A stretch of DNA of 64,000 bases from Diprion similis (taxonomy: Eukaryota > Arthropoda > Insecta > Hymenoptera > Diprionidae): assembly GCF_021155765.1 (NCBI RefSeq), contig NC_060117.1:585001-649000 (forward strand), in the 5' to 3' direction. How positions within the stretch are numbered: the stretch's first letter is position 1; each line of letters opens with the position of its first letter. This document shows positions 431 to 51,154 of this stretch, one piece after another. The position numbers were made by a program, and so were the translations under genes. The notes beneath the pieces were generated by a model, which saw nothing but the letters and a program-made list of their open reading frames with translations, was not told the origin of the DNA and did not search any database.

Positions 431-752
431 TTAGGGTGGTTCGTTTGAGATGACTATTTTTTTTTTCACTCTCGCCCTAAAATTTTATCGAACATGTCGA
501 AATAAAAACTCTCTGAAAGTTAAGGCCCTCAAAATTAACATCGAGCACTTTCGCTTATCGTTAAAAGATCTACCATCTAAAATACACGTAAATCAGGATT
601 TTTTGTTTTTTTTTGTTTTCAAAATACCACTATTCTTACTTAATATTAATTTTGAAGGCTGTAACTTTCCGAGAATGCTTATTTCGACATATTCGATAAA
701 ATCTTAGGTCGAGAGCGAACAAAAAATAGTCGACTCAAACGAAACATCGTAA
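431..752. mobile_element. MITE-like element with ~30-bp terminal inverted repeats
   Basis: Positions 431-460 (TTAGGGTGGTTCGTTTGAGA...) and 723-752 (...CTCAAACGAAACATCGTAA) are imperfect reverse complements, about 25 of 30 matching, including TTCGTTTGAG and GACTATTTT. Both ends are flanked by TATA, a possible target-site duplication. The interior is about 260 bp, AT-rich and carries no transposase. This fits a non-autonomous DNA transposon. The superfamily is not recognised. Confidence 0.55.
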
Positions 753-807
753 TATATTGTATAGATATAGATATACATATACTTAAATCTAGCCACTTTG
801 TTGACAG

Positions 808-3800
808 AAGTTTGTCTCGACGACCATCAGACCGAGTACCCTGCCGTATCCGGAATTGTCTACGTGGCAAGGATGCGCGAAATTCGTCAGCGACTACCTG
901 ACGTACGAACCACCAAGAAATCCAATTCTTATGGTAAGTTTTCCGCTCAATTTCTGCCTACCAGCTCCAGTCAGTGTCCGATCAGTGTCAGTATCAATCT
1001 ATCCCATTCACAGATCTCCGCAAGTACTCGCTTATTGAGGAAAAACGATAACCTACAGTAGGGAATACGGTTCAACAATTGTCTCTTACATATTCCACAC
1101 TCACTGCATGTAATTGTTCTCGGACTGCCGGAGCTAGGTATAATAATTAGGTACATACATATCTATACGTCTATGCCTACACGGTAACGATTAAGGACGT
1201 ATAGGAATAAAATTTTAGCAATGTTTAAAGTTAAATACGACTATCTTCTGATTTTGGTATTACTTCATCTTCTCGGCTAAATACTGCTTACGTACAGTGA
1301 AGTTCCCCCAACCCGCAGTCGCTATCACGTCCGTGTCAGCTCCCGAGTTTCACTGATTTAAGGCATGGTAAAATAATTTTGCCAACGTGTCGCGAACAAT
1401 CAGACCTCTATTGAGTTGATAATTTTGAAAAAATACGAAACCCTCCCCCCGTCTCTCCGGTAATATTACATAGGTAGGTCGGTAGGTACTTACTACCCTA
1501 TGCCTAGAACGATATGGTAACAATATAGATTTATTTTCTACTCCGTTTGAACGTGGACGTTGGTTTTCTGCACGTTTTCAAATTGTTCAACAGATATCTA
1601 AACTGCATGATTTGCATTCGCGATACGGATGGTTGGGAGCACTTTTCCAACCACTTGAGGAACTTCTCCCCGTGGGCTACAGCTTCCTCGGTCGTCAGCT
1701 GTGCATCCCCGGTCTCGCCGTTGCTCTGTTGAACTTGGGTGTTTCGCTTCACATTCTCCTCATCGTCGTCGTCGTCGTCCTCCTCCTCCTCCTCCCTCTC
1801 ATCTATGTTGATGTTGTTATTGCTGTTGATGGTGTTGTTGTTCCCGAGAACGTTGTCGAGCAGTGCCCTCGTCTTGGTGGGAGACTTCTTAACAGCGGCT
1901 GCTGGTGTGGGCGCGGTAGGTGCGAAACCGTACTGCTTGTACCATTTCCAGAACCACGAACCACCGAGGTCCCGACTACCGCCAGGACTGAATATCGCAG
2001 ACTGTTGGCCCAGTAGCTGTTGTTGTTGCGTCAGCCACAGCCACAGAGCTTCGTCCACTTTGTTGTTGACCGTCCCAGTCCCGGCTGCCGCATCAGCACC
2101 GGCGCCGCTACCGCCGACTCCTCCTCCTCCTCCTCCTCCTCCTCCGGCCTTACTACAGTTCTTGGAATCACTCGACTTCTTCGCCTTACCGGGATGCTCG
2201 GAATCGTCGTTAGTCTTGCGAGGCGATGCCGGTGCCGGAGCGAACGGTGCCTCGGCCGCAGGAGGCAGGCTGTTCCTCGATCCGGATTTGTCGACGGTGT
2301 CCAATTGGCTCGGCGCCGCTGCCGATGTGCTTTGCTGCTGCTGCTGCTGTTGCCTCTTGGTTATCCCGGCGCTCCTCGTGTACTGGAGCCCATTCTCGAC
2401 GAGCCCTACCACAGGGCTGCTCTGCGTCCCACCGCCGGACGGTACGTGGAGCAAATTTTTCCCGATCGCATTGGTCGCGGTTGAGAGAAGGCCGAGCTGC
2501 TGAAGCAACAGAGATCCGCTGCCCTCGGGTCTGATTGCAGCTACGCTCGCCATCAGGGCGGCGTAGTCGATCTTGGATTGTCCGCCCTCGAGTTTGCCGG
2601 CGTCCAGCTGTTCCGTCGGCGAACCACCGTCCGCGTCGGTTTTCTGCCGCTTCGCGGTGCATCCCTCGTCCTCGCTGTTCCCCGCCAGCGATGAATTGTT
2701 CGCGTTTACGGAACTAGAAGCCGGGGAATGGGCCTCGCTGTCCGGTGTGCAAGAGTTACGTGCCATTCCCCTTATCTTGTGCTCGGACTTGCACCATCCC
2801 CGCAGCGTCGACTCGGGTACACCGATATCCCGAGCCACTGAAGCCTTGCTCTCGCCCTCGTGGACTCTCTGTATCGCGTCCATTTTTTCCGAGGCTGACA
2901 GCGCCCGCAGGGGACGTTTACCCGGTCGTGCGGCTGATTCACCCCTCATCTTGATCGCTTCACGTTCTCCGCAGTCCGGCAGTCCTTGTTTACGCCGGAC
3001 GATCAATTCCGAGGATCTTCGATATCAAGTCCGGATGTCCTTCGAACGAATTCCCAGGCGATGCTGTAGCCGATTAAAAAATTCATTCACGTCGCCTGAT
3101 TCCTTGTCTCGCGAAACTGTTTCCAACTTCGAGAATCTCGGGATCACTCTCTTTCCAACTTGCTGCTGTTGGCTGTTATTTGTGCTGCGCGACGAAATTA
3201 CGGTTCATGCCGTTAGGCGGTGAGGACCGCGAGAATGTGAGTTCGAGTAGTTGTGTCGTACACGTTGGATAGCACATGCGCCGAATGTAATAAAGAACTT
3301 TTTTATGAATGAAACAACTTCTACTCCCCTCCCCCGCTCCGATCCACCTGGTCGTAAACCACCACGCTATGGCTCGACCAATCCGCGATGCACGCGGGAA
3401 ATGTATGTACTATTACGACACGACGCCGACGACGACAACGACAACCGATACCACGAGGCGGCGACCCCTGCACTCACTGTGTCATTCTATCGGGCTATAC
3501 TTTGTTTACGAATCGTCCGGTAATTGTTTGTTATTATCACCTTGGCTCGACTCGCCGACGGGAAACTTCTTTTGTCGGATTTTCGCTTTGTATTCTTTTC
3601 GCCGTTTATATTCCGAAAGGCGAGCGATAGTTTATTGTTTATTTTTTAAATTTACGACGAAAATTACTTCAACAATTACTACGCCACACTATCACAAATC
3701 AATCACTATTATCGTTAAAGTTTCTTTTAAGCGTCCGATGGGAAATTTATTCTCAGTTTCGAATTCTACGATCGATCATCGATCTAAAATCCACCAATCA

Positions 3801-6800
3801 CCCTCTGAAGCGATAGCTATTAAACTGGTCACTTTATGTTAATCGAGTGCAGCAGAAACGCGGTATGTAATTATAAAAATATGCAGAAAACGCACACGCG
3901 TCGATGGTGGTCCTCGGGTGCCGGTAGTTCCACGTTGTTTCGGTAAGCAGTATACAGACAGAAACTGGCAACTCGTGGCTGTGTTCGAAGGGCACGATTG
4001 ACGATGAACTCGAGCGACGGATGTATGTTATCGGTATCGTTTGCCTGACAATCTGATATTCGTTTGGCCAACGGCGGATGAAAATCGTTCCTTTCGCGAC
4101 GTACCGCGACGCACGACTGTTGGCTCAGCGGACTCTGCGGACGCCGGACGGTCCGCGGACTGGCGACGCCGACAACCGCCCTACCTCCTTCCCTCTTCCC
4201 GCCCGTCAACCCTCCGAGTCTCCTCCCCCTACTCCGTCGACCCCGTCGCGAGTTCGCATCGCGGCACGGCTAAGGGCAAAGGGGCGCCAAGGGATCGGCG
4301 GGGACGCGACGGGAACTACGACGACGACGACGGCGACGACGGCAAGGTAGAGAGGGAGAGAGAGAGCGCGGTAAACGGGCTGTTTCACTCGCCAGGGACG
4401 ACGACGAGGACGCGAGCGAGGCACCGACGACGGTATAGCGACTATAGCGGCAGACCCTCGCATGGCCTGCAGCTGTCTCCTAACGTCCCCTCCTCCCCTT
4501 CCCTGCGCTCGGTATAACCCTCGGAGGCTCACCGCCCTGCCATTCGCTTCGTCCTTTCCCCGGCCCGACCTTCTCCCTTCGCCGCGTTCCTTCCCTCCTC
4601 ATCCCTCCGCCGTTGCCGCCCTTCTGCCCGCCACCCTGGCCGCCCCGTTGCCTCTATGTAATGTACTAGGTACCGACCAGAACCCACCCCGGTGTAAATA
4701 CATAAAGGCAGAAGCGGCGACCGACCGCGGCGTGGCGGGTTCCAACCTCGCGAGAAAACCCTCACGGGAGAAAACTCTACGCGCCGACTACGCGCCGACT
4801 ACGCGCCCCGATCGCCGAGGGTAAGCTGCCGAGGATTCACCATCGCGCGAATGCGCCTCTATATTTTAAATACTTTTCAGCGACCCGTCGTCTGTGGATG
4901 CATATTATAGGTGATTCGCGCCATCGTCTACGTTCTACGTTCACACCTTTCACGCCGTGCAAACGCTGCACGCTAATATGCATACCCGAATCTTATCGCG
5001 ATCACACCGATTAAGCGTAAAAATATGCGTACGGAGCAGGAAATATACGTCGAGGAATCAATTAATTCCGAAATCACGTGTACCTGTAGCTTGTAAAAAA
5101 ATAGACGTAAATAGGTGTGTTATTAACCTAATAATTGGACATACGTGAGTGAGGTATATTTACCTCTGATAGTCATGGTACAGATGGTACTTACGATTAG
5201 CCTTTACATAATAGCTAGCCTCTGCGATCGAGACCTGTGTATTTATACACCAATCAGCGCCGCGAACTTGGGTACTTGTCAAAACTTGGATGGTAATCCC
5301 GTGCACTATACGTTACACCGGCTTAGTCTATCCATATATTCGTAGTAGGGCCTGAACAAATTACTTCTTCCGAGAGGCACCGTAGCTGTATCAACCGTGT
5401 ATGCATCTACAATGAACATGTACTAAACCAACGATGATTTCACTACGTGCAATGCAATATCGCGTTGGATCGCGAAGTTGAACACGTAATTGCTTCGCAC
5501 CGTATACCAGCTGATACACGCTCGTAACCAAAAGCTACAATATCGTTCGATTTGTGTAAATTATGGCAGAGCTGTGGAGTAAGTATTCTTTGCGAATAAT
5601 CTTACGAAAGGATAGGCTGCAGGTCAGAAGCGATCATTGTAGATTAGGGAGTGCGAATTTTCACAGATAAAAGAGGGTTACGAATTACTTCTGAGCATCC
5701 TCGGATACTGTGTACACTACGTATGTACGTGGATATGATAGACCGGTATTACACCTGCGCGTATGTCGGTGTACGTACCCGCGTAGGCTGGTGGCTGAAA
5801 AATAAGGAAAACCGGGAGCGTAGCTTTATAAGCGGGAAAAACACGGCGAAGCCGTCGGACCAGAGGATGGCGCGGCGGGGAGCGGGCCGTTATTTAGCTG
5901 GTCGCGCGGCGTCCCTCGCGACCCAACTCACCCTTGGGCCTTCATCCCTCCGACCCTCCTCCTCGAACCCCCTAGACTTCCACCCTTGCCACCCTGCCAC
6001 CCTCCGGCCCCTCGTACCGCGTCTCACGGTCGGTCTCGTCCTCCTTTGTCGCGCGGATACGAACCTCTACCGCCGCCACCATCACTACCACCACTACCAC
6101 CACTACCACCACTACCACCCCTGCCGACGCCATCGCCATCGCCATCGCCATCGCCATCGCCATTGCCAACCTTTGGAGCGTGCAACGCAGTTTCTGCTTT
6201 CGTGGAAAATTTCACTTCGAAGGCCCTATATAAGCGCGCGGCGCCGAGGCGTCGTTTTCCTGACCACCGCGTGTTCCAGAAATTTTTGGGATAATTAAAC
6301 GGCATACGCGGGCGAGCGAACGGTTTCCGATAATAGGTTCGCCCGACGAGACGCGAAAGAAAAAAATAATAATCTATCGCGATATCGCGGGTCTTTTTTT
6401 TTCAACTTTTCCAACTCAGAACGATAAACGTGACGAAGGTAAGTATAAGCGTCTATATAGCGACGCAATCTACTTACATTGTACATTATACACGTATTTA
6501 CACGTTCATGCAGGATACATTGTAGAAAAATACTTCTCTTCCTTCAACCGTCTGCTTGATCATACTACGAACTACATAACTCGATTTCGCCTTCGACCGA
6601 TTGTGATTGACAAAATTTCCGCATCAATGTAACCCACCGTCGCGCTTCGAACAGTGTTTACATCTCATACCCTCTTTCACTTTAATATCGTACGAAATAG
6701 AATTAAAGACGATACATACATAGTTGCGGATTCGAATATTTGCTTGAATACATTGATTGCCAAAGACTGCAGCTTTGATATCTCGCCGATCTACGTACAC

Positions 6801-10700: not shown

Positions 10701-13700
10701 TGCAGAGGCAGAGAGATCCGTCCGTCTCTCTCTCTCTCTCTCTCTCTCTCCCCCTCTCCCTCCCTCTCTCTCTTCGCGGCGCGCGCGCGCGGTCGCTTGC
10801 ATACACAGGCATCCGTAGGTAGATATACGTGAGTGTTTGTGTACACGTACACACATAGATAGTTGGTTCATGGGGCAGCGAAGAGGGTTGTGGGGGGGAG
10901 GGGGGGTTGCACGGTCGTTCCGTTCGTCCTTCCGTTCGGTCGTCCCGTTCCTCCGTCGGTCCGTCGGCTCGTCCGTCTGTTCGTTCGTTCGTTCGTTCCT
11001 TCGTCGTTCGTTCGCGTATATATATATATATATATAACATCGGTCGTCGGAAAAGGGTGAAACGCGGGACGGCGAAGAGCCGGGGCAGGGTGAACTAAGG
11101 GGGGTAGGAGAGGGGCAGAGGGGTAGCCAAGGTAATTTGAGCGTCACACGCCGAGTGAACGCCAGGCAGCAGCGCCTATGTGCCACATAAAGAGCTCCCT
11201 TATGTATCCAGCAGGCCCATCGCGAACCTCTACCTTCGTTGTATTTTACGCGGTACATGCCGCGCTCCCGCACACACAGAGGTACATCCCTGCACGTATA
11301 CGGGGTGCTCGAAAAGTAGTTACCGACCTGAGCTGAAACCACCCCGTGCATGGGCCGTCTCGATCGGGGCATTATTGCATAGACACTATATAGCTACTAG
11401 GATCTTATTTAACAAGCGAGATGAAGACTCGGATCTTGTTGTCGAGCCGATTGTCTTGCCGGACCAATTACTATACCATTGTTCGTTGGTTCCGGTATAA
11501 CGTCGACGTGATGCGAGGATCATCTTTTTGCTTTTACGTTTTCCGAATACGTTTACTGTTACAGCTACGCGAACGTGTAACAGCGAAGCTGCATGCCTGC
11601 GTCTATCTAATCTCTCTGCTGCTGACCGTTCGTATCCTCTCCCTCCCTCCCTCCCTCTCTTTCATCTACCGTTTCCCGTCACTTTCCTGTTCTTCTTGGC
11701 ACACGAGTTTCCGCACCGATTCGGCAAGTTTTCCCTAGTTAATGAATAAATGCGACGCGGCCCGATATGACCGGAATCGCCGTCGATTACCGCGCGACCG
11801 TTGAAATTTCTTCCCTGTATGCCGGATATGTCGAAGCCGCGTAATTCGAGACCCAGGTCTGGCCTTTTACCGCTTACCGAATAACACGGCCGACATCCGG
11901 CCGTGCGCTGCTGCGTCTCTCCTCGATCGAGGTGCTCGACAAAAGATCACGCAAATTTCATTGCCACTTTCCGGACGCTAGTCGAGCTTATTAATCCGTA
12001 AAAGAGATGGGAAAAATAAGGGATAAGAGCCCCGAGTTCCTATTTGCGGTATAAAAAACCCCTCTGTCCCCGTCCCAATTGTTAAACAGTAACTACCTAC
12101 TGTAGAAATGACTCACAGGAATGATCTACTACGTTACGCGGTGAAAACAGAATGACGACACGTGTTGGTTCAAGAGGTCAAACTATGAAAACACGTATAT
12201 TACAAATATAATATGGTATATAGGTATACGTATATTTATATATATTTATATGCGTGTGTGTGTGTGTGTTTAGCGTATCTACCCTTCTGAAAATTCTCGT
12301 CATTTCATACAAAAATTTGAGGTGCGTTTTTGCTGTCGGCAATTTAATTTGAAAACGATAAAAATTTCCCGGAATACGACACACTGCATCATTATATATT
12401 TAAAAAATTCCTACGGCAAACGAGAAGTAAAATATTGAAGGCCACCGATGTTTGTCCAAAGAAAAGTGTGTTTTCCTTGCGAACCTGTGACAATTAATTA
12501 TGCGCTCGATCACAATGACAAAGTACATTTTCTAGAAACCGATTCTCGTTATTAAAATAATATGTATAATAGCAGTCGTCGCACGTACGCGTACGTATCG
12601 CATACACCTGCATGTATGAGTAGAATGTAGCGTACATGTATAGCATGGAGGAACGAGAGCGTGGAGTAAAAGATATAAGCGTCAATCGCGGTGAATGTTA
12701 TGAAAGATCAGCTTTAAAAAGCAGCAGACTTTAAAAGCCAGAGGGTGTATAACGGCTGGTATAAGGGAAGGAAACCCGGCACATATAGACGTGTAACGAA
12801 CAGAACACGACTGAAGCGGACTCGAGAGTTTTTAGTGGCAACTTGTTGCGCGACGCTCATTCATACGACTCCGACGCTCCCATTACGTTGCATTACCTCC
12901 GTCAGAGGTTGCAACTTCGCAAAGTGCCAACTTCCAACTTCCAAGTGCATGACGTACCTACTAGGTTACGGTACTACGTGTCCCTCCCCACCCCTCAACA
13001 TCATACACACATACTTACGCTTATGGGTTTGAGAAGCATACTTAATTTTTGCGGGTATAAGGAGCGCATGCATACTTTACGTGTGTACCTACTGACATCG
13101 ATATGTGCTGCACGTGTTACACGCAGCGTTTCTGCTTTTATTTCATTTTATTATTTCAATTTTCTTTTTCGTAATTTCTCGATCGTCATACGCGTACGGA
13201 TAAGATATGATATCCAGAGTATTCCGAATTGCCGTTGAACAAGACGCGGCAATGTCGGAGGTGGGAAAGTTGGCCGCGGTACACGACGCGATCGGTTTAC
13301 TGCTGGCCTTAATTTCTTGGTAGCCGAAAATTCCCCGCGGCTTTAAGGACTCTTGTTCCGGAGCCTGCATAGAAGGGAGGGGGGAGGGGGGCCCTGGTTC
13401 GGGTCGGGTCCGGATCCTACCACGCCTACGAGTCCCGAATTTGGCCTCGGGGGCCCCGGCTCTGCAGCCGAGAGTTAGGATAAGGGCCTTCTAGGAATCG
13501 ACTACGCGGTTCTCTTTTCGACCCGCACGACCCTCCGCGACCGGATAAAGGAAAACGCGTCTACCTTGTACATGTATGTATATATATATATATATATATA
13601 CATATGCCGCAGCACACACACACACACACACACAGATGTATATACACGGCGACCAGCCCGGGCTAATGCATATACCTGGGCAACGTCGCAATTTCCCCTC

Positions 13701-16700
13701 CGCCCTCTGGATTTTCCCGAACCCTGCAGCCGGCTACAGGGTTGCACCAGCGAACCCGAAATTACGCGAATTATATATATATATACATATATACATATAG
13801 GTATACACATACTATATACTGTACCGTTATACGTATAGATATTACCAATTACGGTAAATATGCTTTGCATTATCTGCGTGGTCACAATATTATAAAGAAT
13901 GCCAATGAATTGCTGCACTTGTACCTACCTATCGAGAATTTTATACCAACTCGCAAATCAACACCTCATATTAAGGTATAATAATCTCGTATACATACAT
14001 TGTAGCTGCAATGAGTCACCGTCACAGGTCGAGATACATATATATGTGTGTGCGTTATTCGTATGCAGTAATTGCAACAACTATGCGGTCGAGTCGTTTC
14101 GCAGCTGCGATTGTACGGAGTTTGGTTCTCGGATCGCCCTGTCGCATCGCAGGTTTAGCCTTCCCCGAAGCACCCCCTTTTTACAACTCCCAATAACTAA
14201 ATCGCGTCGCTACCTTCGACGGTCATCCTAGCAGCTTTTGTTCGATGTGATTTATTACTTATAATACAAGTATACTTTAATCTGCTGTACTGTTAATCCG
14301 GGCTCAACGCAAATGCCAAGACAACGGGTAATCCCTGTTTCGGCGCGCATTATTGGAATCCAGGAAGACGACAACGAGACGACAATGCCTTATACCTCGC
14401 CTTATACTCGAATATCTCTTATACGAGTACTACGTTCACGTCCCGATTTGAAGATTGTATGATTTCAATTTGCATCTACAAACGTAAAACGTAGTAGCCT
14501 AGCCAGGTCATAGGTGTATTGCACGCGTTGTATACATACGCGATACAGTAAAAACCTCGATACCGCAGGAAAGGCTGGACCGTATCTATTCTACCTACAA
14601 GATAACGATACTCAAATGATTCCACGGTCCGGTCTCCCGAGTTTCGGCTTACCCATACGTACGGTACGGTATAGAACAGATCCGGGATCGAGGGACGTTT
14701 CTGGAAACACGTCGTTTCTCCGGCACTAAATATAGGCGCCCTCGCGACGCCGGCCGTCAATATACCACCCCTGACTAACCCCCTGGGGGGCACCGCCGGT
14801 GGTGCAGGGTATAGCGTATATCCTAGCTCTGGCCGACGTCCTAGACCCTCCGCGTTTTAGCCTAGCTTCTAGCCACGGCGCGGCGTCGGAGCCGCAGGGA
14901 GGACGAGAGACGAGGACGAGGACGAAGAGGAGGAGGAGGAGGAGGAGGAGGAGGAGGTTGGGGGCGAGAGACGTTGCAGATACGCGGTACTCGCCATCCT
15001 CGCGTCGTACTCGCGCGACCCCCCCCTATACGTATACGTACTATACACGTACCGACATACGCGTACATGCGTGCGTGTGTGTGTGTGTGTGTGTATATAT
15101 ACATAGACACACACACCGGGGCTACGGAATACGGCACACGGCTATATCCCCGCGACGTAATCAGCGAGAGGCTCTCACCCCCGGCGCGGACGCGGATTCC
15201 CTTCTCTGCCCCTCGGCGAACCCTGCCTTCGCCCTATATACATATACATCGGCTATGTGTTTGCTTGGATATATATACATAGCCGTTAAGTGTGTACATA
15301 AGATACTAGTTGCAATCTATACGCGTATGCTTGTATCAAGGTGTACACCTATACATGCCATGCATATCTGTGTGTGTGTGTGTGTGTCTACATCTTTGTA
15401 CGTAGGTAGGCGAATATCGCGGGAATGCTGATTTACATCATCGCTAAATGAAATCTTTAACTCGCCGGTCGAGTTTTCTAACACCCGAATTCATCCGTAT
15501 ACAATGATAGATATACCCATACAACCCGAGTTATTTAATTTCCTCTCTCGTAGATATTACAATGGTGACATCTTGTGTATAGATTGGATAGGTATTTTGA
15601 AAGATTGCAGGGATTGTTCCGTTGACGTAGGCTTTACCGTGGATCATACACACCCCGTTATATCTATGGCTTCGCTCCACGGACGCGGGGTATCGGTGCA
15701 GGACGCCCGTTCCAGTTATCAATCATGCTGCACCAACGCGTACGCATAATTTAAAAAACCTGGCGACAATCGAACCGCAATCACGAATCTGCAAATAGGT
15801 TAAAGGTTGATACGTATCGATAAATAATTGACTCGCAGCGTAATCGTGATAGCATAATTTTCGCTTACGTATTGTAATCTTAAATCTACAGTCACGGAGG
15901 TGTCTTTTCCGCACCGGATGGTGGTGGACGTATATTATACTCGCTACACCGTGCGCGAGGAGTTGCGGTGCGGGCTCTCACCAGTGGACTCTCGAGAGTG
16001 CCAATATAATTTAACTATTACCTATATTCTTAGAATTCAACGTTGTAACTTAAAGGAACCACCAAACCAAACTGCTCGCAATGATAAGAAAATTCGACAG
16101 TTTGTTCAACTCTGTTGCGCAAGCGGAGTGAAACAATTAAGATCGATGGTTGGGTATTCAATTCCAATATTCAATCGATCATCTCTCTGCGTACCGAATG
16201 CGTATTCGATAATTATGCAACCGCGCGGTCGAGATGAAGAAAAAATAACAACAATAAAGTGAGTTGAGAACCACCGGGTGCAGCTGCCGCACCGCGGCGG
16301 TATCTCGTCCACGTCGTCCACGCCGCTGGTCACCCACACCTCGAGAGAAGTTGGCGTGAGGAGAAAGCGGGGGTGGCGAAGGTCCGGGCGGTTTGGTATG
16401 AAGGACTGAGGGAGCTGGGTTTGGCAGCGAAGCGGAAAAGGGGCGAGGGGAGGGAGGAGGTGTTTCAACCACCCACTAATTCTCATCGTCAGCCTTAGGT
16501 AGGTTTATACTGGTGTGATGGAGCGGTGCCTACGTATACGTATAGCCAGGTTACACCCTTCTTAGCCAAGAAACGTATACCTCTTCTCAGCTTGGCCGCA
16601 GTTTCGACAAGAAGGGATGCTCATTTCGTACCTGCAGGTCTCTAATACCCTAACCTATATGCAGCGGTCTATAAACTAGGGCATTTATCGAAATCGGTTC

Positions 16701-19700
16701 GTGAGGTTTTTGTGCGTGCGTCGGGGCTGGAAGGGTGAGGTTTACTGCATCAAATCGTGCAAATGCCAAAAGTCTGTCAAGTTATGCTCGTAGCTCGTTA
16801 CTTTTTCATAGGTATAATAAACAAAAGACCGCTTGAGTACCGAATACTACCGCCGATTTTTAACGTCCGTATCATCGCGTGAGTGCGAGATTTGGCTGCA
16901 GAAAGAGGCCGAAGCAACACCTTCGAACGAACACCTTATGTATACCTATATAGGTATACGTATTTCTTGACTTTTCTTAAAATTGGCATTGGAAGGAGAT
17001 TTTGACAAGTTTGCGCTACAGGGATCTACAGCCTGTAGAACGTTTTACGAAATCCGTGGATGAACATGTGTGTTCCTTGGATCGCATCGTAGGTGTAAGC
17101 AAGTATAAAATTCTCACTCGAAATCATTGCCGTCGTTGGATAAGAGTCGTCGGAGCACATCGCGATATCCAAATTCAAATCCCGATTCTCTCGGCTTACT
17201 TATTTCTATCAAAAATTATAAAAGCAAACACCGTTTTCTTGATTAAATTTCATTTAGGTATCAGTATTAATTTCAGTTCGATTTTATTACTTTAAAACAT
17301 TTCCTTCTACTACCATCTTTTCGAAAAACTTGAAACCGATGACAAACCGTCGATGCCGATACGTCAGTTTATTATGCCGATAATGTAGAACACACACTGA
17401 CCGACTGTGACGGCAGTTATAGGCGGGCGGATCATCGACGTGTGGCAGGCGACATCGCGTTCAAATTTTAGAATACCTCTGCCTACAGATACAATGGATG
17501 AATTTCATCTTCTACCGCAACCTTCCAATCATATTCCGAACCCATATTACGTAAATTGTCTCCAACTCTTATCAGATTGCTATGATGAAATTACTTACAT
17601 ATGGCAGAAAATTTATGCAGAGTTTATCGCATAATTCATCGCTCCGATGTCAAAGTAATCCTTAAATTCGTTGACGGAAGATCTATCTTGAGTCAATAAA
17701 TCACGCACAACATCGGCTGCCGTCACCGTGCACTTTTTGCTGTTGCAAGTATAACTTACTCACATCCTGTGACACTGCCAGTTTGATAAATTTCACTCAT
17801 CGATTAATTACAAACGCGTAATTTTTTTTCACCGGCCGATTCGAGAGCGTTGCACAGGAAACAATTCGGAAAATCGATTGTTGTCCTACTTCCCGAGATT
17901 TCACTCAGTTATGTAAAAAGCTACATTCCATTTTTGTAAATCAATCGAAAACAATGTGAAAACTATGTGGACCGATCATTCATTATTAGCATACCAAGTT
18001 CGTGTCTCCGCGATACGTAATCAACCTCCGATTCATAATCATACGTAGGACCGGCCGGAGCTAAAAACAAAAGAGTTATATCCAACGCAACGCGCCCACA
18101 GGTGTGAAGTGAGCCCAAAGCGGGGGAATTCGTATTCTTTTCCCGCTAATTCAGTTCGGAGACAAATGAACAATCTCACCGCACTTCACGCGTATCCGGA
18201 AATTCAAATTACTCTAATTTGTACCGAATTTCGATTCAAAATAATTGTTCCGTGACATTGTAAACTAACAATCTCGATAATCTGTTGATGGTCGCAGGGA
18301 CTGTTTCAATGTTAATATAGGGTTAGATTCATTTTGCAGTATATGATCGTTCGTTTATGGAAGAATCAACAAAAATGCAGACAGTATAAAAAAAGAAATA
18401 AAGTTAAATAAGTTTCAAATTTGTTGAAAGATAATGTCGACATTTATCGATACATTCTATGTACATACCGTTTAATTTTTTAGCCGGATCGCCTGTGCTC
18501 TCCGACGTGGGTTCTTCACAGACAAAAGGGAAATAGCTTCGAATTTTCTACAGTACTGATTAGTCTTCTGTTAGGTCAAGGCTACAACGCCTACGTTGTA
18601 AGTGGCTATGCGAGCAGAGAACAAGTTAGTTACGATTGCACCCGTAAGGTATGCCCATACCTACAGAAACCAGAAGAGCCAAAGCAAGAAGCCGTATCCC
18701 TGGAAACTCAAAGATATCGCTTGAAACCACCTCCCGACATGAGGAGTAAATTTTTGTTGGAAATGGAGGCAAGCGAACGTAAGAAGTTGGAAGATGATTT
18801 GAAATTTCAAGAAGAAGAACGTGATAAGATGATTCAAGTACGATACAGCATCCGAGCATATGAGTCATTTTTAACCAGTGAATTGTATGAACCGGATGAT
18901 TATATAACGTATAATTGTTATTTGACAGGAACTTGAGCGCCCACCACCGGACGAATATTGGGGATACAGAATACACTCATGGGTGGTCATTTTACCTGAA
19001 GAAAATGGTGGGCGCAAGGATGAAATTCTGGAACCCATTTTCATCGAGCCTACGTCGGGGGAATTTCATTATCCTGCCGACAATAAAACCAGTAATCTGT
19101 ACCTGGGCGTAGAGAGCATTTGGAACGATCAGAATTATTGGGTAAACATGCAAATCTGCGCTAACGGATGTGCGTCCATTGACTGGGATCTAACCAAACC
19201 CAAATTGTGGGAGCATCTCCTTCCCGGAGAGCCTTGGACGAAACGAGGAGTAGACGAAGAGGAGGCCGAACAGGATCTCAATATTCAGATGGACAAGCAC
19301 TTGGACATGCCTGTTTCTTGGGTGGAAAAAATTTCATTATCTAGCGTCGGTATGTTCATCCTGACCATTATAATCTGCATGTGCTAGAAACACCTGGTGT
19401 GATTGTATGAATTGCTTTTCTTTTTATACCAATATTGCTTTAGCTTTTGAGAGACGCTATCCAGGTGGAAGTAAAACTATACTTTACAAAAAGGCCAAAT
19501 TAGAACTGTACGCTCCTTATGTTCAGAGGGACGGCTTGGTTAAAAAAATTACATTGTTCGAGGATTATGAGTATATGATCCCTACGGCTATCTACGAGAC
19601 GTTTACTAATCGAACTGATTACAGAGTGAAAACTGTGAAGAATTTAGATACCGAAACGGTAATTGATTACTACAAGAGAGGACGCCCAGATGCATGTAAA

Positions 19701-25197: not shown

Positions 25198-27220
25198 TTA
25201 GATTAAATCGGCGACATTCATAGGCATCTCATCAATCTGAGTGGAATAGTATTGCTCAATATCACGTAGAATTCTGATGTCATCGGTTTTGACGAAGTTG
25301 ATGGATACACCTTTCCTTCCAAAACGTCCCGAACGTCCAATTCGGTGTATGTACAATTCTCGATTATTGGGTAGATCGTAGTTTATCACCAATGATACTT
25401 GTTGTACATCTATTCCTCTAGCCCACACGTCCGTTGTGATTAGTACTCGACTGAGGATTCAGAAAACATATGTCATTATTACTCGTAAGATATGCTGGAT
25501 AAAACGAAAGTATCACATGGAAATTTTGGTGAATAAAAGGAAACGATCAGCGTGTCTTAATCTTGGAATTTTAGTATTGAAATTACTTCGACTCTTGTTC
25601 AAATAACGCCTGTAACAGCTTGAAGATGAGTCATGGGTGAAATTACATACCTCTGACCAGATCTAAATTCCTTCATTATGTTGTCCCTTTCTTTTTGCGG
25701 CATATCTCCGTGCATGGAACATACGGTGAAGTTTGCTTCGCGCATTTTTTCTGTAAGCCAGTCTACCTTGCGTTTCGTGTTACAGAAAATAACAGCTTGG
25801 GTTATTGTAAGGGTATCGTAAAGGTCGCACAGAGTATCAAATTTCCATTCTTCGCGCTCGACCGCAACGAAAAATTGCTTAATACCTTCCAGTGTCAATT
25901 CATCGCTAGAATGAAAAATAAGTAACTGAAGAATTGTCGACCGATTAGAACCGTGTATATACGTAAGAGATTTTATTTACCGTTTAACAAGAATACGTAT
26001 AGGATCAGTCATAAACTTGCTGGTCATTTCAAGGATCTCATGGGGTAGTGTAGCGGAAACTAGTACGACTTGGGTAGCTGGAGGCAAATACCGATAGACG
26101 TCGTAGATCTGTTCTTTGAATCCCTTGTTGAGCATCTCATCCGACTCATCCAAAACCAACATTTTTATCGCTCTGGTTCTCAATACTCTGCGTTTTATCA
26201 TATCTACAATGCAAGGAAATTGATTTCAGGTCAAACATAACAGGAAGTAAAAGACTGAATCAGATACAATGGCTACAGGTTCAATACGGTATACGAATGA
26301 CATTGGTTGTTTACTTACCAAATACTCGCCCCGGGGTACCGGACACAACATGTTGTCCATAATCCAATTTTCTGATATCTTCGCCTAAATTGGTACCTCC
26401 GATACACGCATGGCATTGCACGTTCATAAAGTCACCAAGAGCCAATATTACTTTTTGAATTTGTGTAGCAAGCTCACGTGTGGGAGACAGACAGAGAACC
26501 TGAGTCTCACGCACCTGCGTATCCAGCGATTGCAATATGGCAATTGAAAAGGTGGCTGTTTTACCCGTTCCAGACTGTGCTTGGGCGATCACATCTCTCC
26601 CTTTCATAATTGGTTTAATAGATCGCTGTTGAATTGCCGACGGTTTTTCAAAACCTGTTGAAATAAAATTCCTGGGGTTACAAGAAAAAAGAATCACGGT
26701 TTGATAGCTTTGGGTTTGCACATTTCTTGGACATGTGTCAGTGCATTACTTTGGATAGTATTTGCATCAAGTTGGAAGCAATGAATGGTCAGTTTAGAGT
26801 AGAAATCCTTTTTTATACATTTCGTAACCGAGATTGGCAAGTTACGGTGTCTATGTGGTTTTTACTGGCTATCAAGGTCAGGGTAGTAATCAGGGTTCAT
26901 TATATTCAAATATAAATAAATGGATCATCTTTAGATTGGTTTTTGGTAGATTACCATTAGCAGATGTATACGAATATGTGTATGCCCAGAGCTAGATTAC
27001 AGTTTTTTTTTAAGAATCGTGATGATTTTTAGGTTAGATATGTTCACAGCAGGAAAATTAGCGGGGATATCTTACCGTAGGCATAAATCCCTCGTAGTAG
27101 CTCATCGCGGAGTCCCATATTATCAAAAGTCGGGATAACCTCGACATCTTCGCTGGTTTCAAACTCCACATTCGACAAATCTTCAGTTTGCGCGACACGG
27201 CGTGATTTTACTTCCGCCAT
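25198..27220 (-). CDS. eIF4A3: eukaryotic initiation factor 4A-III, exon-junction-complex RNA helicase
   Basis: ATP-dependent DEAD-box protein that clamps spliced mRNA as the core of the exon junction complex. It acts with Mago, Y14 and Barentsz in the nucleus and cytoplasm. Exons (minus): 27220-27076 ([11 protein letters not shown]), about 26654-26319, 26203-25981, 25905-25651 and 25450-25198, summing to 403 residues. Visible motifs: Q-motif [10 protein letters not shown], motif I AQSGTGKT, Ia PTRELA, GG, TPGR, motif II DESD, motif III SAT, motif [32 protein letters not shown], and the C-terminal [17 protein letters not shown] typical of eIF4A3 rather than eIF4A1. Motif II reads D-E-S-D (codon TCG) where the family normally has DEAD. 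It is divergently arranged with the RRM gene to the right. Confidence 0.96.
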
Positions 27221-27556
27221 CTTGTTAGAATTGACACTTCGCCACAATCACAATCAGATTTGGTCTAACCGTTTACAAACGGAAGCGACTGGAAGCAGCG
27301 ACACCCACGCCATGGCCTGCTTCGGCACTGCTCGTTCTAATCCCGTTCCGTCAGAGAGCAGTAGAATCGACTTCCGTCTCCCTCTCGAACGAATTTGGTA
27401 TTGTTGGAGGGAATGACGCCACCCGGCTTTGCGACCATTTGCAACGTCCATTCCATTTCCGTTTCTGTGGCGTCGAGGGTCGGTTAGTCGATGATTAATT
27501 GCATTCAGTAATACGTTGTTGATTTTATAACTGATCTTACCGTTCCGTAGGCGCTC
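27221..27556. promoter_or_regulatory. probable bidirectional promoter eIF4A3 / RRM gene
   Basis: The eIF4A3 ATG (minus) is at 27220. A strong donor (CTCCG/GTGAGT at 27557) marks the likely end of a noncoding first exon of the RRM gene on the + strand. The roughly 335 bp between them would then contain both starts. No TATA box is evident. Confidence 0.4.
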
Positions 27557-28268: not shown

Positions 28269-31200
28269 ATGACTGAAGAGAAGGTATGTACTTTCAAATT
28301 AGCTAGATGTACATTCACACTTTATGGATGGGACCAAGTTATAGATTCGTAAAGATTTATTCTACTCTCGCTGCGTATAAAAATTGCCTTATTTTGTTTC
28401 GATTAATCTCAAGCTAGCAGAGCCGATCTTGCTGAACATTAAAATTGGCTAATTCAGCCAAATATTGCTGTAAAAATATCAGCTCTCCATGAAATTTGAC
28501 AAAATTTCAATTGCTAGTTTATTATCTTATTTTACCCGTATGCGGCAACTTGAGCTTTATCTTGTTCTGCGACTTGACCCTGTTGTTACGTTGAGAAATT
28601 GATATTTCATTATTTTTCCACTCGTCTACTTTTTGTCAGAAGAATTTTGTAGAACACAATTTCTCTGATTAATATTTAATGTAATAACTGGTGTTTCTTT
28701 CCTTACAGAAAATAGTTTCTACTGCTGCGCCGGTAAGTGAAAAAGCACAACATCACCCATTCGACGAACCAAGCCATGCTCGACATATTTCACATCAATT
28801 CAAAGTGAATTTTGTGAGATTTGTTCATCAGTTGGATCGAGCTATAGAAAAGTTGACTCTTCAACAGACACCATATTTGTATTGTACATAATTATGGTCG
28901 ATTTGAAAGATACAGTACTTGGGTTTCCGCACGTCTAACCTGTTTATCATTTTGTAAAAATTTCGTCTTTAAATGTGTGCCAAAAAAAAACACTTATTTA
29001 CACATAATTCGTTACCATACTTGAAATCAATGAATCTATCCTTCGTTGTCATTAAAGAGCTTTGTGCAGGAACAACTTTATTTATGAAAGTTTCACAAGG
29101 CAGTTAAGAGCCAAGCATTTCTTTTTCTTGGTTCTTTGAATTTGTCCCTGAAATAACGCACAATATGTCTTTATTTTAATTCATAGAGAAAAACTAAGAT
29201 CTTTGTCGGCCGACTGCCAGAAAATTGTCGCAATGATGAATTGCGACAGTTGTTCCTACGATTCGGCGAAGTCACAGAGTGTGATGTGATGAACCGTTAT
29301 GGATTTGTCCATATGGCAAGGGAAGAGGATGCAGCAACGGCGATCAAAACTCTTCACAATTCAAGTTTCAAAGGAGCAACCATCAATGTCGAACAGTCGA
29401 CAGGAAAATCTCGAGGGGGTGGTGGCGGGGGTGGTGCTCGCAGAGACAGCGATCGTCGTGGTGGTCCAATGAGAGGGGGGCGAGGAGGTCGAGATGGAGG
29501 ACGGGACGGACGACCGGGACCTTATAATGATCGTCGAGGTAAAAATACCGACAACACTATGATTAAGAATTTTCATACAAGATGTCAAAATGATCGATAT
29601 TGTGATATAGTTTGTTCATGCATGTTAAATTGTATATGAAAGTGCCTCAGAACCTGGGCAAGGACTTTCTGTAATTCAGACAGTTCCTAATCTTCCGAGG
29701 CTACATCAAATAATCCTTGTATAATCCCAGTTAAATCTCATCATATTTAACTGATTCATGGCAAAGATACAAATCGTCGAAATCAAACAAAAGTGCCGAT
29801 AATTAAATTGATCATTCAAGCAAAGAACATATGAGAAGCAATGTGGGTTTTTTTCAGGTGGTAGCAGAGATGGCGGCTTTGGTGGCAATGATCGAGGTGG
29901 ACGGGGTGACTTTGGTAGAAGAGGCGATTTTGGCAGCAGCAGAAATGGCCCCGGTGCCGGGGGTGGTTACAACGACTACGGTAATCGGGGAGGAGGCGAC
30001 TACACTGGTCGCGGCGCTGATTTCGGCGGTGGATACAACGATCGCGGTGGTTACGGACAAAATAGCGGAAGTGGTCTGGGAGGATACTCGACAAGCTCAC
30101 CAGGAATGGGAGGAGCGTACGGCCCTGCCTCGGGGGCTTCTGGAGGATACGGACCTACGGCCACACCAGAGTATGGACGAGGTGCAGACTTTGGTCGAGC
30201 TGCAGACTTTGGAGCCAGAGCAGATTTTGGGGGCCGTTCTTGTAAGTGTTACTACCGGCTGTGAACCTTATAGTTGTATAGGATCCATGTTCTATATTGA
30301 AGTGCAACAGACATGTTTGTTCTATAACGTGATTATATTGGATCGTAGTGATACGTATGACGTTTATACTGATCCGTTTGCAAACTTGTATTTCTCAAAG
30401 CAGCTGGTATGGGAGGTGACTTCAGCCGTGGTGGCCCAGCTGATTATGGCCGTAGCGACACATTTGGCGGCGCTCGTACTGCCGAATATCCACCGAGAAA
30501 CGATTACGATCGCGGAGTATCGGGACCAATGAGGAATGGAGGCGCCACAGCAGCTTATGGCGGAGGTTTCACAGAAGCTGGGTATGCTTTCCCCGAGACA
30601 TTATGGTTTTTGCTTACTAAACTAAGAGATTTCGTTTTTCCTAACTCTCTTCCAAGATCTCGCTAGTGCATTTGTCCCAAAGAATAATTTGGTTCACGCA
30701 ATAATTTGAACCCTACTAAGCGCGATACGCCTATTTCACATATTGTAGCATGTGGAGTATTTCACACGAAACATTGCTTTATTCATTTGATTTGGATGAA
30801 AGATAATTTGGTTACAATATTATAACGCCGCGTGACAGGGGTTTCCAGCAGGTCTAGGGGGTGTAACTGTAAATCAGGGATAGACTAATGTATTTCAATA
30901 GGAACGAAAGGACTTTTCTTAGTAATTTTTCTTTATTGGACAGGCCCATTGGTGCAGTACCCAATTATAGCACAGGTCCCGGGCCACAAGCGGACATGTT
31001 TAGCAGAAGACCGGGGAGTGCCGCTCCTAGCGGAGGGTATCCTCCAGTTGGTGGAGGGTGAGTAATTTGAATGATTTTCAATACCATCATTAGTTTTAAA
31101 CAAATATGTATTCGACATTCATACGGCGATCCATATGGCTGGTGAACTCACGATTAAAGCCTCGAAATTTGGGCAAGATGTGTCTTCCTTAAATTAAGAC

Positions 31201-31849
31201 AATTTCTAATCTTTCGAGGCAATATAAAGTCCTTGTTTAATCCCAGTTAAAATCTTTGTATTGAACTGATTCATGGCAAGGATACAATCGCATCAACAAC
31301 TAAGCTAAACAATCCAATGTCCGTTTAATTTTTCTGATCAATCGTTTTTCGATATACTTCAGTTACAGCGACGGATATGACCGGACGGATCCCTACGGTC
31401 CAAGGAGTGCCGGACGGTGAGTTAATATTAGCACTGATTTTTTGCCGTTCGTACGCATCGTACGTCGTTATAATTCTTTGTCTGCGAGGTTGATATTTAG
31501 GCAGCGAACGCATTTAAATGAAAACCGTTATTGTCCCGAATCACAGTTAATTACGACAGTTTTTTTACGACGGTCCTAGACCTTTCTTCGCTTTACCTAC
31601 ACTTCCCTCGTGCCGTTACCCGGCTGCAGAATCACGTTTTTTCGCGTCAGTTTCCATTCAAAAGTCATTTGTTTCTCAAGCGTCAACGAAGGGACAACAA
31701 TATTTCAGTTTGACTGACGGCAGTCTTGATTCTTCTGCCCTGTAACTCTAACAAGCCGCGGTACGAAGCGAAAAAATTAATCTGCGATTTTCAATTTTTG
31801 ACCTTTTAGCTTCCCAGGTCCGGCAGACTCGATGCCGCCGAGGTACTAA
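28269..31849 (+). CDS. single-RRM glycine-rich RNA-binding protein (lark/RBM4/RBM14-type RRM)
   Basis: Coding exons: 28269-28283 (MTEEK), 28709-28732 (24-nt microexon), 29187-29538 (RRM), 29858-30241, 30401-30581, 30944-31057, 31363-31416 and 31810-31849 (stop). They total 387 residues in phase. The RRM spans about residues 17-85, with RNP2 KIFVGRLP and RNP1 RYGFVHMA; the ECDVMNRYGFVH stretch resembles lark/RBM4/RBM14. The rest is a Gly/Arg/Tyr/Asp-rich low-complexity tail (RGG, GGY, DFG repeats) ending PPRY, typical of condensate-prone hnRNP-like proteins. The exact orthologue is not recognised, so no symbol is given. A noncoding 5' exon probably ends at 27556. AATAAA lies at 31885-31890. 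Introns at 29539-29857 and 31058-31362 each carry an H/ACA snoRNA candidate. Confidence 0.88.
29641..29774 (+). ncRNA. box H/ACA snoRNA candidate A (intronic)
   Basis: The fold is hairpin-hinge-hairpin-tail. Hairpin 1 lower stem: GCCTC (644-648) with GAGGC (697-701); upper stem AGGACT (661-666) with AGTTCCT (682-688). Box H: ACATCA (703-708). Hairpin 2 lower stem: TCCTTG (714-719) with CAAAGA (762-767, one mismatch); perfect upper stem CAGTTAAAT (728-736) with ATTTAACTG (745-753). Box ACA: 769-771, followed by 3 nt. (All are 29xxx.) The pocket-to-box distances are 14 and 15 nt, as the family rule requires. Pocket 1 (CTGGGCA ... AATC) complements conserved 28S GAUUUCUGCCCAG, modifying U in UC. 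Pocket 2 (TAATC ... TTCATG) complements 28S CAUGAAUGGAUUA. The 28S sequence is from memory. It ends 83 nt before the 3' splice site, as usual for intronic snoRNAs. Confidence 0.8.
31157..31289 (+). ncRNA. box H/ACA snoRNA candidate B (intronic paralogue of A)
   Basis: Same architecture as candidate A, three introns downstream. Lower stem 1: GCCTCGAAA (159-167) with TTTCGAGGC (212-220), perfect. Upper stem 1: AGA (176-178) with TCT (205-207), then TGTCTT (181-186) with AAGACA (196-201). Box H: ATATAA (222-227). Lower stem 2: TCCTTG (230-235) with CAAGGA (277-282), perfect. Upper stem 2: CAGTT (244-248) with AACTG (264-268). Box ACA: 284-286 plus 3 nt. (All are 31xxx.) Distances are again 14 and 15 nt. 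Guide segments TTGGGCA/AATC and TAATC/TTCATG are the same as in A, while the upper stems differ in sequence but still pair. That is the pattern expected of a functional duplicate. It ends 73 nt before the 3' splice site. Confidence 0.82.

Positions 31850-42682: not shown

Positions 42683-51154
<8,472 letters not shown>

Follow-up and report, generated by a model that had tools for sequence, protein, structure and literature searches.

The 64,000-nt stretch of the Diprion similis (pine sawfly) genome analyzed here (NCBI RefSeq assembly GCF_021155765.1, contig NC_060117.1, positions 585,001 to 649,000 of the forward strand; hereafter the window, numbered from its first letter) contains a gene for a protein with an RNA recognition motif (RRM), and two introns of this gene each carry a 133-nt block that is read here as a box H/ACA small nucleolar RNA (snoRNA) gene. 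The two RNAs, named copies A and B, would be released from their introns, bound by dyskerin and used to guide modification of two sites in the 28S ribosomal RNA (rRNA), and they would be intragenic duplicates that are probably redundant; a probability of about 0.93 is given to this reading as a whole. In their sequences, both blocks display the H/ACA anatomy, a match to an H/ACA family of Rfam and complementarity to the 28S rRNA of this species at two positions where yeast and human rRNA is modified; that both RNAs are expressed, processed, bound by proteins, active in modification and redundant we infer.

Homology and copy number of the two intronic blocks

The comparison of intron 3 with intron 6 by blastn gives a single match, in which 102 of 133 positions are identical (77%, E 4e-24), and there is no blastn match at E <= 0.01 outside the 133-nt block. 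This agrees with an earlier note on this DNA, made from the letters alone, which had described a shared block of about 133 nt in these two introns with the remainder unalignable. Copies A and B are, as judged by this alignment, homologous. Compared column by column, they differ in 29 of the 132 ungapped columns, with 8 further columns gapped. The placement of the duplicate inside one RRM-protein gene, also proposed in that note, is supported by the intron match together with the PF00076 domain of the product and its identity to an annotated protein.

The RF01655 family (ceN84, a Caenorhabditis box H/ACA snoRNA) matches both blocks end to end (1-130 of 130 model positions), with 52.3 bits for copy A and 49.3 bits for copy B (E 5e-7 and 2.1e-6 for the 2.1 kb searched, and 1.5e-5 and 6.5e-5 over the 64-kb window). 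When the window was compared with 4227 Rfam families, ceN84 alone was listed at the two blocks at E <= 1, the best overlapping match per clan being kept. Weak sense-strand matches at the same blocks, to ceN86 (E 0.88) and snoR83 (E 1.4 and 6.7), were taken as chance. The search of 14 control genomes with ceN84 gave no match. The earlier note had named the blocks H/ACA snoRNAs and suggested a covariance-model search as a check, and this search returned RF01655 over its full length, though below the gathering score of the family.

Two copies bounded inside introns are, at first sight, what a mobile element or a short repeat with structure would leave behind; however, searches of the whole assembly (269 Mb, 60 contigs) with the DNA of either copy (at least two matches each, both being the two known blocks) and with ceN84 (E <= 0.001, best 45 of 37,650 first-look candidates scored) return the same two blocks and no other place. 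Because just two copies were returned by these searches, the repeat or mobile element is rejected, and the sense-strand, end-to-end match to an H/ACA family, with the expected boxes and guides, also speaks against it, so that this origin is considered barely credible.

Fold, boxes and guide pockets

Both blocks are arranged as hairpin, box H (ANANNA), hairpin and ACA followed by 3 nt (Table 1), which is the order that had been read in them before. For either block, none of 200 dinucleotide shuffles folds as well as the real sequence (z -3.50 for copy A and z -3.40 for copy B). The reverse complements fold less extremely, one at z -2.81, where 1 of 200 shuffles was as good, and the other at z -1.99, where 10 of 200 were. 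An antisense RNA as the product was rejected because of these less significant folds and because no minus-strand H/ACA family is found there; the sole minus-strand Rfam match at the blocks is to a C/D family (E 4.5). A covariance model constructed from both copies and searched against the window recovered its own two copies and three minus-strand matches (E 0.042, 0.078 and 0.22), all of which overlap the two blocks.

Counted from the first base of the 3' guide arm that is paired, the box follows at 14 nt in each of the four pockets. The rule of 14-16 nt that had been invoked for both copies therefore holds, and the value of 15 nt that had been given for hairpin 2 fits when one extra unpaired A is counted. 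As for the guide arms, 1 of 22 positions is changed between the copies (C to U, with the pairing to G kept), compared with 29 of 132 columns overall, and the remaining 21 positions are identical, in line with the conservation of the guide strands noted earlier.

Predicted 28S rRNA targets

Targets were scanned on six rRNA pieces of the same assembly, all confirmed with Rfam, which include 18S, 5.8S and the 5' part of 28S (L030), two 28S parts (L018) and a 3' part (L031), for a total of 7,733 nt and 1,747 uridines, the stretch of site 1 being counted twice. Over these pieces, the predicted uridine is the top-scoring one in all four pockets, corresponding in both copies to the U of GAUU-U-CUGCCCAG for pocket 1 and to the U of GCAUGAA-U-GGAUUAACG for pocket 2. 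Conserved 28S stretches had been proposed as the targets of the two pockets, and both stretches are present in the assembly and rank first in the scan of this species' own rRNA.

The names of the sites depend on helix 69, where the U of UAAC-U-AU was taken, by our own assignment, as yeast 2258, in which case the helix-69 uridines fall, as expected, at 2258, 2260, 2264 and 2266. Site 1 lies 67 nt before this uridine, and site 2 follows it at a distance of 56 nt (both measured on L018, the second with the insert left out). Yeast 25S rRNA has pseudouridines (Ψ) at 2191 (snR32), at 2258 and 2260 (snR191, helix 69) and at 2314 (snR86) (PMC8307265), and human 28S rRNA is listed as modified at 3674 (Ψ), 3741 (Ψ) and 3797 (Ψm) (PMC6182160). 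Since the 67/56-nt spacing is the same as that of yeast 2191/2258/2314 and human 3674/3741/3797, the predicted target of hairpin 1 is, by position, the equivalent of yeast 25S-Ψ2191 (snR32 type; human 28S-3674), and that of hairpin 2 is, likewise by position, the equivalent of yeast Ψ2314 (snR86; human 3797, SNORA48). Each guide RNA probably directs pseudouridine formation at two conserved sites of the large-subunit rRNA. The available parts of PMC9997552 and PMC3511168 contain no data on these two 28S sites.

Hairpin 1 had been thought, in the earlier note, to serve the target of human U19 and yeast snR191, which is not sustained. U19/SNORA74 guides 28S 3741 and 3743, with SNORA48 listed for 28S 3797 (PMC6466398), and snR191 addresses 2258 and 2260, not the GAUUUCUGCCCAG stretch. 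The uridine addressed by hairpin 1 is 67 nt upstream of the helix-69 pair, and U19/snR191 was rejected as its relative.

Interrupted 28S copies

Among the 22 exact matches to the site-1 motif, 7 were examined as 28S stretches (L012-L018, G000). CTCTTAAGG is at the expected place in 6 of the 7, that of L015 being short of one G, and in none of the 7 is it directly followed by TAGCCAAATG. In L014 and L018 the CTCTTAAGG and TAGCCAAATG parts are about 3.7 kb apart, and the other 5 stretches are without TAGCCAAATG. The gap in L014 (G000:C11:14207400-14212400) spans about 735-4416 and includes an open reading frame (ORF) of 517 amino acids, which by eye looks like a reverse transcriptase; the insert as a whole resembles an R2-type element in its customary insertion position, and it separates the two pseudouridine targets. 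An exact empty insertion site was not found in the assembly. Additionally, CTCTTAAGG is doubled, with about 21 nt between the two, at the start of the insert just after helix 69 in L012, L013, L015, L016 and L018 (5 of the 6 copies compared, with L014 single and the first copy of L015 being the one short of a G), a doubling that might represent a variant junction of the element.

Evidence weighed against the guide-RNA reading

Several observations weigh against the reading of the blocks as two guide RNAs for these sites. The Rfam scan of the window at gathering scores is empty. For ceN84 80 bits are needed; because the scores reached are below this value, the blocks are named here ceN84 homologs and not Rfam members. 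The 28S pieces that were scanned come from interrupted or cut-off copies, and some 28S sequence may be missing from the scan. Also, shuffled guides reach the real score in 6, 9, 7 and 4 of 300 trials for the four pockets, so that a single pocket is moderate evidence; the weight of the target call lies in the agreement of all four pockets and in the fact that both uridines are sites of known modification. As for the three stems counted, a single pair, in basal stem 1, has both of its bases exchanged (G-C to A-U), the basal stems of copy A have two mismatches (A/C and C/A) at places where copy B has standard pairs, and in the pocket-constrained fold only 4 basal pairs form in hairpin 2 of copy A. 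Compensatory change in the stems is modest. The earlier statement that pairing persists in upper stems of altered sequence is thus borne out in part: upper stem 1 forms, in constrained folds, in both copies from unlike sequence that does not align by columns, two pairs that upper stem 2 has in copy A are missing from copy B in the register used, and the two-sided change is a single one.

The limited selectivity of scoring with short arms, together with a scan that covered rRNA pieces only, leaves some room for H/ACA RNAs aimed elsewhere, either at the helix-69 sites of U19/snR191 or at a target other than rRNA. However, the helix-69 uridines are outside the six best sites of every pocket (in pocket 1 of copy A, where the predicted site scores 28, one of them scores 7.0), and all four pockets rank first a uridine that is modified in both yeast and human, which makes another target very unlikely.

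The stem defects of copy A could also mean that one copy is working and the other is a decaying duplicate, that is, a snoRNA pseudogene. Apart from its two basal mismatches, copy A has the weaker hairpin 2 in folds constrained to leave the pocket open (-9.2 kcal/mol, versus -12.2 in copy B), and snoRNA pseudogenes are a recognized class, as described for C/D snoRNAs (PMC12309372). However, both copies retain box H, the ACA with its 3 nt, the 14-nt spacing and all four guide arms, and the one guide position that is not the same in both still pairs as G-U, when at 77% identity decay would be expected to strike the boxes or guides of one copy. A decaying copy is thus regarded as rather improbable, although this explanation overlaps with that of two H/ACA guide genes and the odds of the two are not exclusive.

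Proposed origin and processing

In animals, intronic H/ACA snoRNAs are produced by the trimming of introns after debranching, join the dyskerin complex and direct pseudouridylation. Here it is proposed that the introns of the spliced host pre-mRNA would be debranched and that exonuclease trimming would free each RNA, which would then be bound by dyskerin/Nop60B, Nhp2, Nop10 and Gar1. Hairpin 1 would guide the isomerization of the U at site 1 (yeast 25S 2191, human 28S 3674) and hairpin 2 that of the U at site 2 (yeast 2314, human 3797). The two genes would have arisen by duplication of a snoRNA-bearing piece within the host gene, and two copies per transcript would double the dose of guide RNA; since the same guide arms are kept in both genes, redundancy is probable. 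An intronic location is usual in fly S2 cells, where 95% of the expressed snoRNAs are intronic (PMC13228274).

Comparison with known guide RNAs

The sawfly blocks have in common with ceN84 the length class, the two hairpins and the ACA followed by 3 nt, and the ceN84 consensus also holds GGGCA and AAUC for one pocket and AAUC and UUCAUG for the other, which are the sawfly guide arms. The presence of the same arms of both pockets in this consensus indicates that the dual-guide design is one that the sawfly shares with nematodes. In contrast to the nematode model, the sawfly has two copies in one insect gene, with scores below gathering. A literature search for ceN84 by name turned up only unrelated papers.

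The name of the Drosophila snoRNA:Psi28S-2622 presumably points to the pocket 2 site, by offset arithmetic on fly snoRNA numbers. This RNA is likened to pocket 2 by name alone, the name being given in PMC12123297. In yeast, the same two target positions are served by snR32 (Ψ2191) and snR86 (Ψ2314) (PMC8307265), which are likened to the sawfly RNA by target position and are two separate snoRNAs, whereas the sawfly RNA has both pockets. Human SNORA48/ACA48 is listed for 28S-3797, the target of pocket 2, and also has a protein-coding host (PMC6466398); the likeness is again one of target position, and the host differs, being SENP3-EIF4A1. No guide named for human 28S 3674 was seen.

The clustering of snoRNA paralogs in different introns of one host gene is usual (PMC2653536), and the cis-duplicated paralogs of vertebrates show the same arrangement, with a diverged backbone and kept guides, found here in a sawfly RRM-protein gene. 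Similarly, the fly gene mfl has four isoforms of one C/D snoRNA within its introns (PMC1821038). The host and the duplicate pair had been called new, which stands in that no earlier report of this snoRNA pair or of sawfly snoRNAs was found in a literature search covering titles and the starts of abstracts and thin on subscription papers, but intragenic intronic paralogs are an already established pattern (PMC2653536), and the pair is a tidy but ordinary arrangement within it.

Host gene and other features of the window

The spliced product of the host gene has 386 amino acids and shows 100% identity over 100% of its length to an annotated Diprion similis protein, the "glycine-rich cell wall structural protein 1.8-like isoform X2". 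It has a single RRM (PF00076 RRM_1, E 2.6e-16) followed by a glycine-rich tail. Among the relatives (118 proteins listed, with only the 7,994 candidates having the most words in common being scored), annotations include "RNA-binding protein 4.1-like", "RNA-binding protein 14" and "glycine-rich cell wall structural protein 1.8", and the naming is inconsistent.

The adjoining gene (25198-27247, minus strand) encodes a DEAD-box helicase (Pfam DEAD and Helicase_C), and its start is about 1 kb from the first coding exon of the host gene. Its N-terminal exon resembles, by eye, that of eIF4A3, and the Pfam scan gave no family in that exon. A weak match to the C/D snoRNA SNORD25 is present at 17575-17660 on the plus strand (25.8 bits, with a gathering score of 39; E 0.4) and is probably due to chance. 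In addition, microRNA families are matched at 490-694, 13556-13647, 15028-15117 and 45207-45281 (MIR2619, mir-297, mir-466 and mir-3149), all below gathering; the matches are presumably repeat-like artefacts.

Table 1. Positions in the window of the host gene, its two snoRNA-bearing introns, and the predicted H/ACA snoRNA copies with their boxes and guide arms.
Feature	Positions	Strand	Basis
Host gene, coding part of one isoform, 8 coding exons	28269..31849	+	Exons read; 100% to annotated Diprion similis protein; RRM_1
Host intron 3, bearing copy A	29539..29857	+	GT...AG, in-frame splice; product equals annotated 386-aa protein
Host intron 6, bearing copy B	31058..31362	+	GT...AG, in-frame splice
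H/ACA snoRNA copy A, whole	29642..29774	+	RF01655 ceN84, 52.3 bits, 1-130/130; fold z -3.50
Copy A, pocket 1, 5' guide arm CUGGGCA	29654..29660	+	Pairs 28S UGCCCAG; best site among rRNA pieces scanned
Copy A, pocket 1, 3' guide arm AAUC	29689..29692	+	Pairs 28S GAUU; 14 nt to box H
Copy A, box H ACAUCA (ANANNA)	29703..29708	+	Read in sequence
Copy A, pocket 2, 5' guide arm UAAUC	29722..29726	+	Pairs 28S GAUUA
Copy A, pocket 2, 3' guide arm UUCAUG	29755..29760	+	Pairs 28S CAUGAA; 14 nt to ACA
Copy A, ACA box, 3 nt from 3' end	29769..29771	+	Read in sequence
H/ACA snoRNA copy B, whole	31157..31289	+	RF01655 ceN84, 49.3 bits, 1-130/130; fold z -3.40
Copy B, pocket 1, 5' guide arm UUGGGCA	31169..31175	+	Pairs 28S UGCCCAG, one G-U; best site among rRNA pieces scanned
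Copy B, pocket 1, 3' guide arm AAUC	31208..31211	+	14 nt to box H
Copy B, box H AUAUAA (ANANNA)	31222..31227	+	Read in sequence
Copy B, pocket 2, 5' guide arm UUAAUC	31237..31242	+	Pairs 28S GAUUAA
Copy B, pocket 2, 3' guide arm UUCAUG	31270..31275	+	Pairs 28S CAUGAA; 14 nt to ACA
Copy B, ACA box, 3 nt from 3' end	31284..31286	+	Read in sequence

Implications

A wider reading, which is put forward tentatively and as doubtful, is that a dual-pocket RNA joining the functions of snR32 and snR86 is at least as old as the ancestor that nematodes and insects share and was duplicated in a sawfly gene for an RNA-binding protein, where the copies may give two doses or may be beginning to split the sites, with an output that would be tied to the splicing of the host. 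The analysis adds two well-defined hymenopteran snoRNA genes and corrects their target, and through the same guide arms in both pockets it connects a snoRNA of an insect with a nematode family. The pair would thus serve as a small test case for the persistence and duplication of dual-guide snoRNAs inside host genes, within a general picture that is unchanged.

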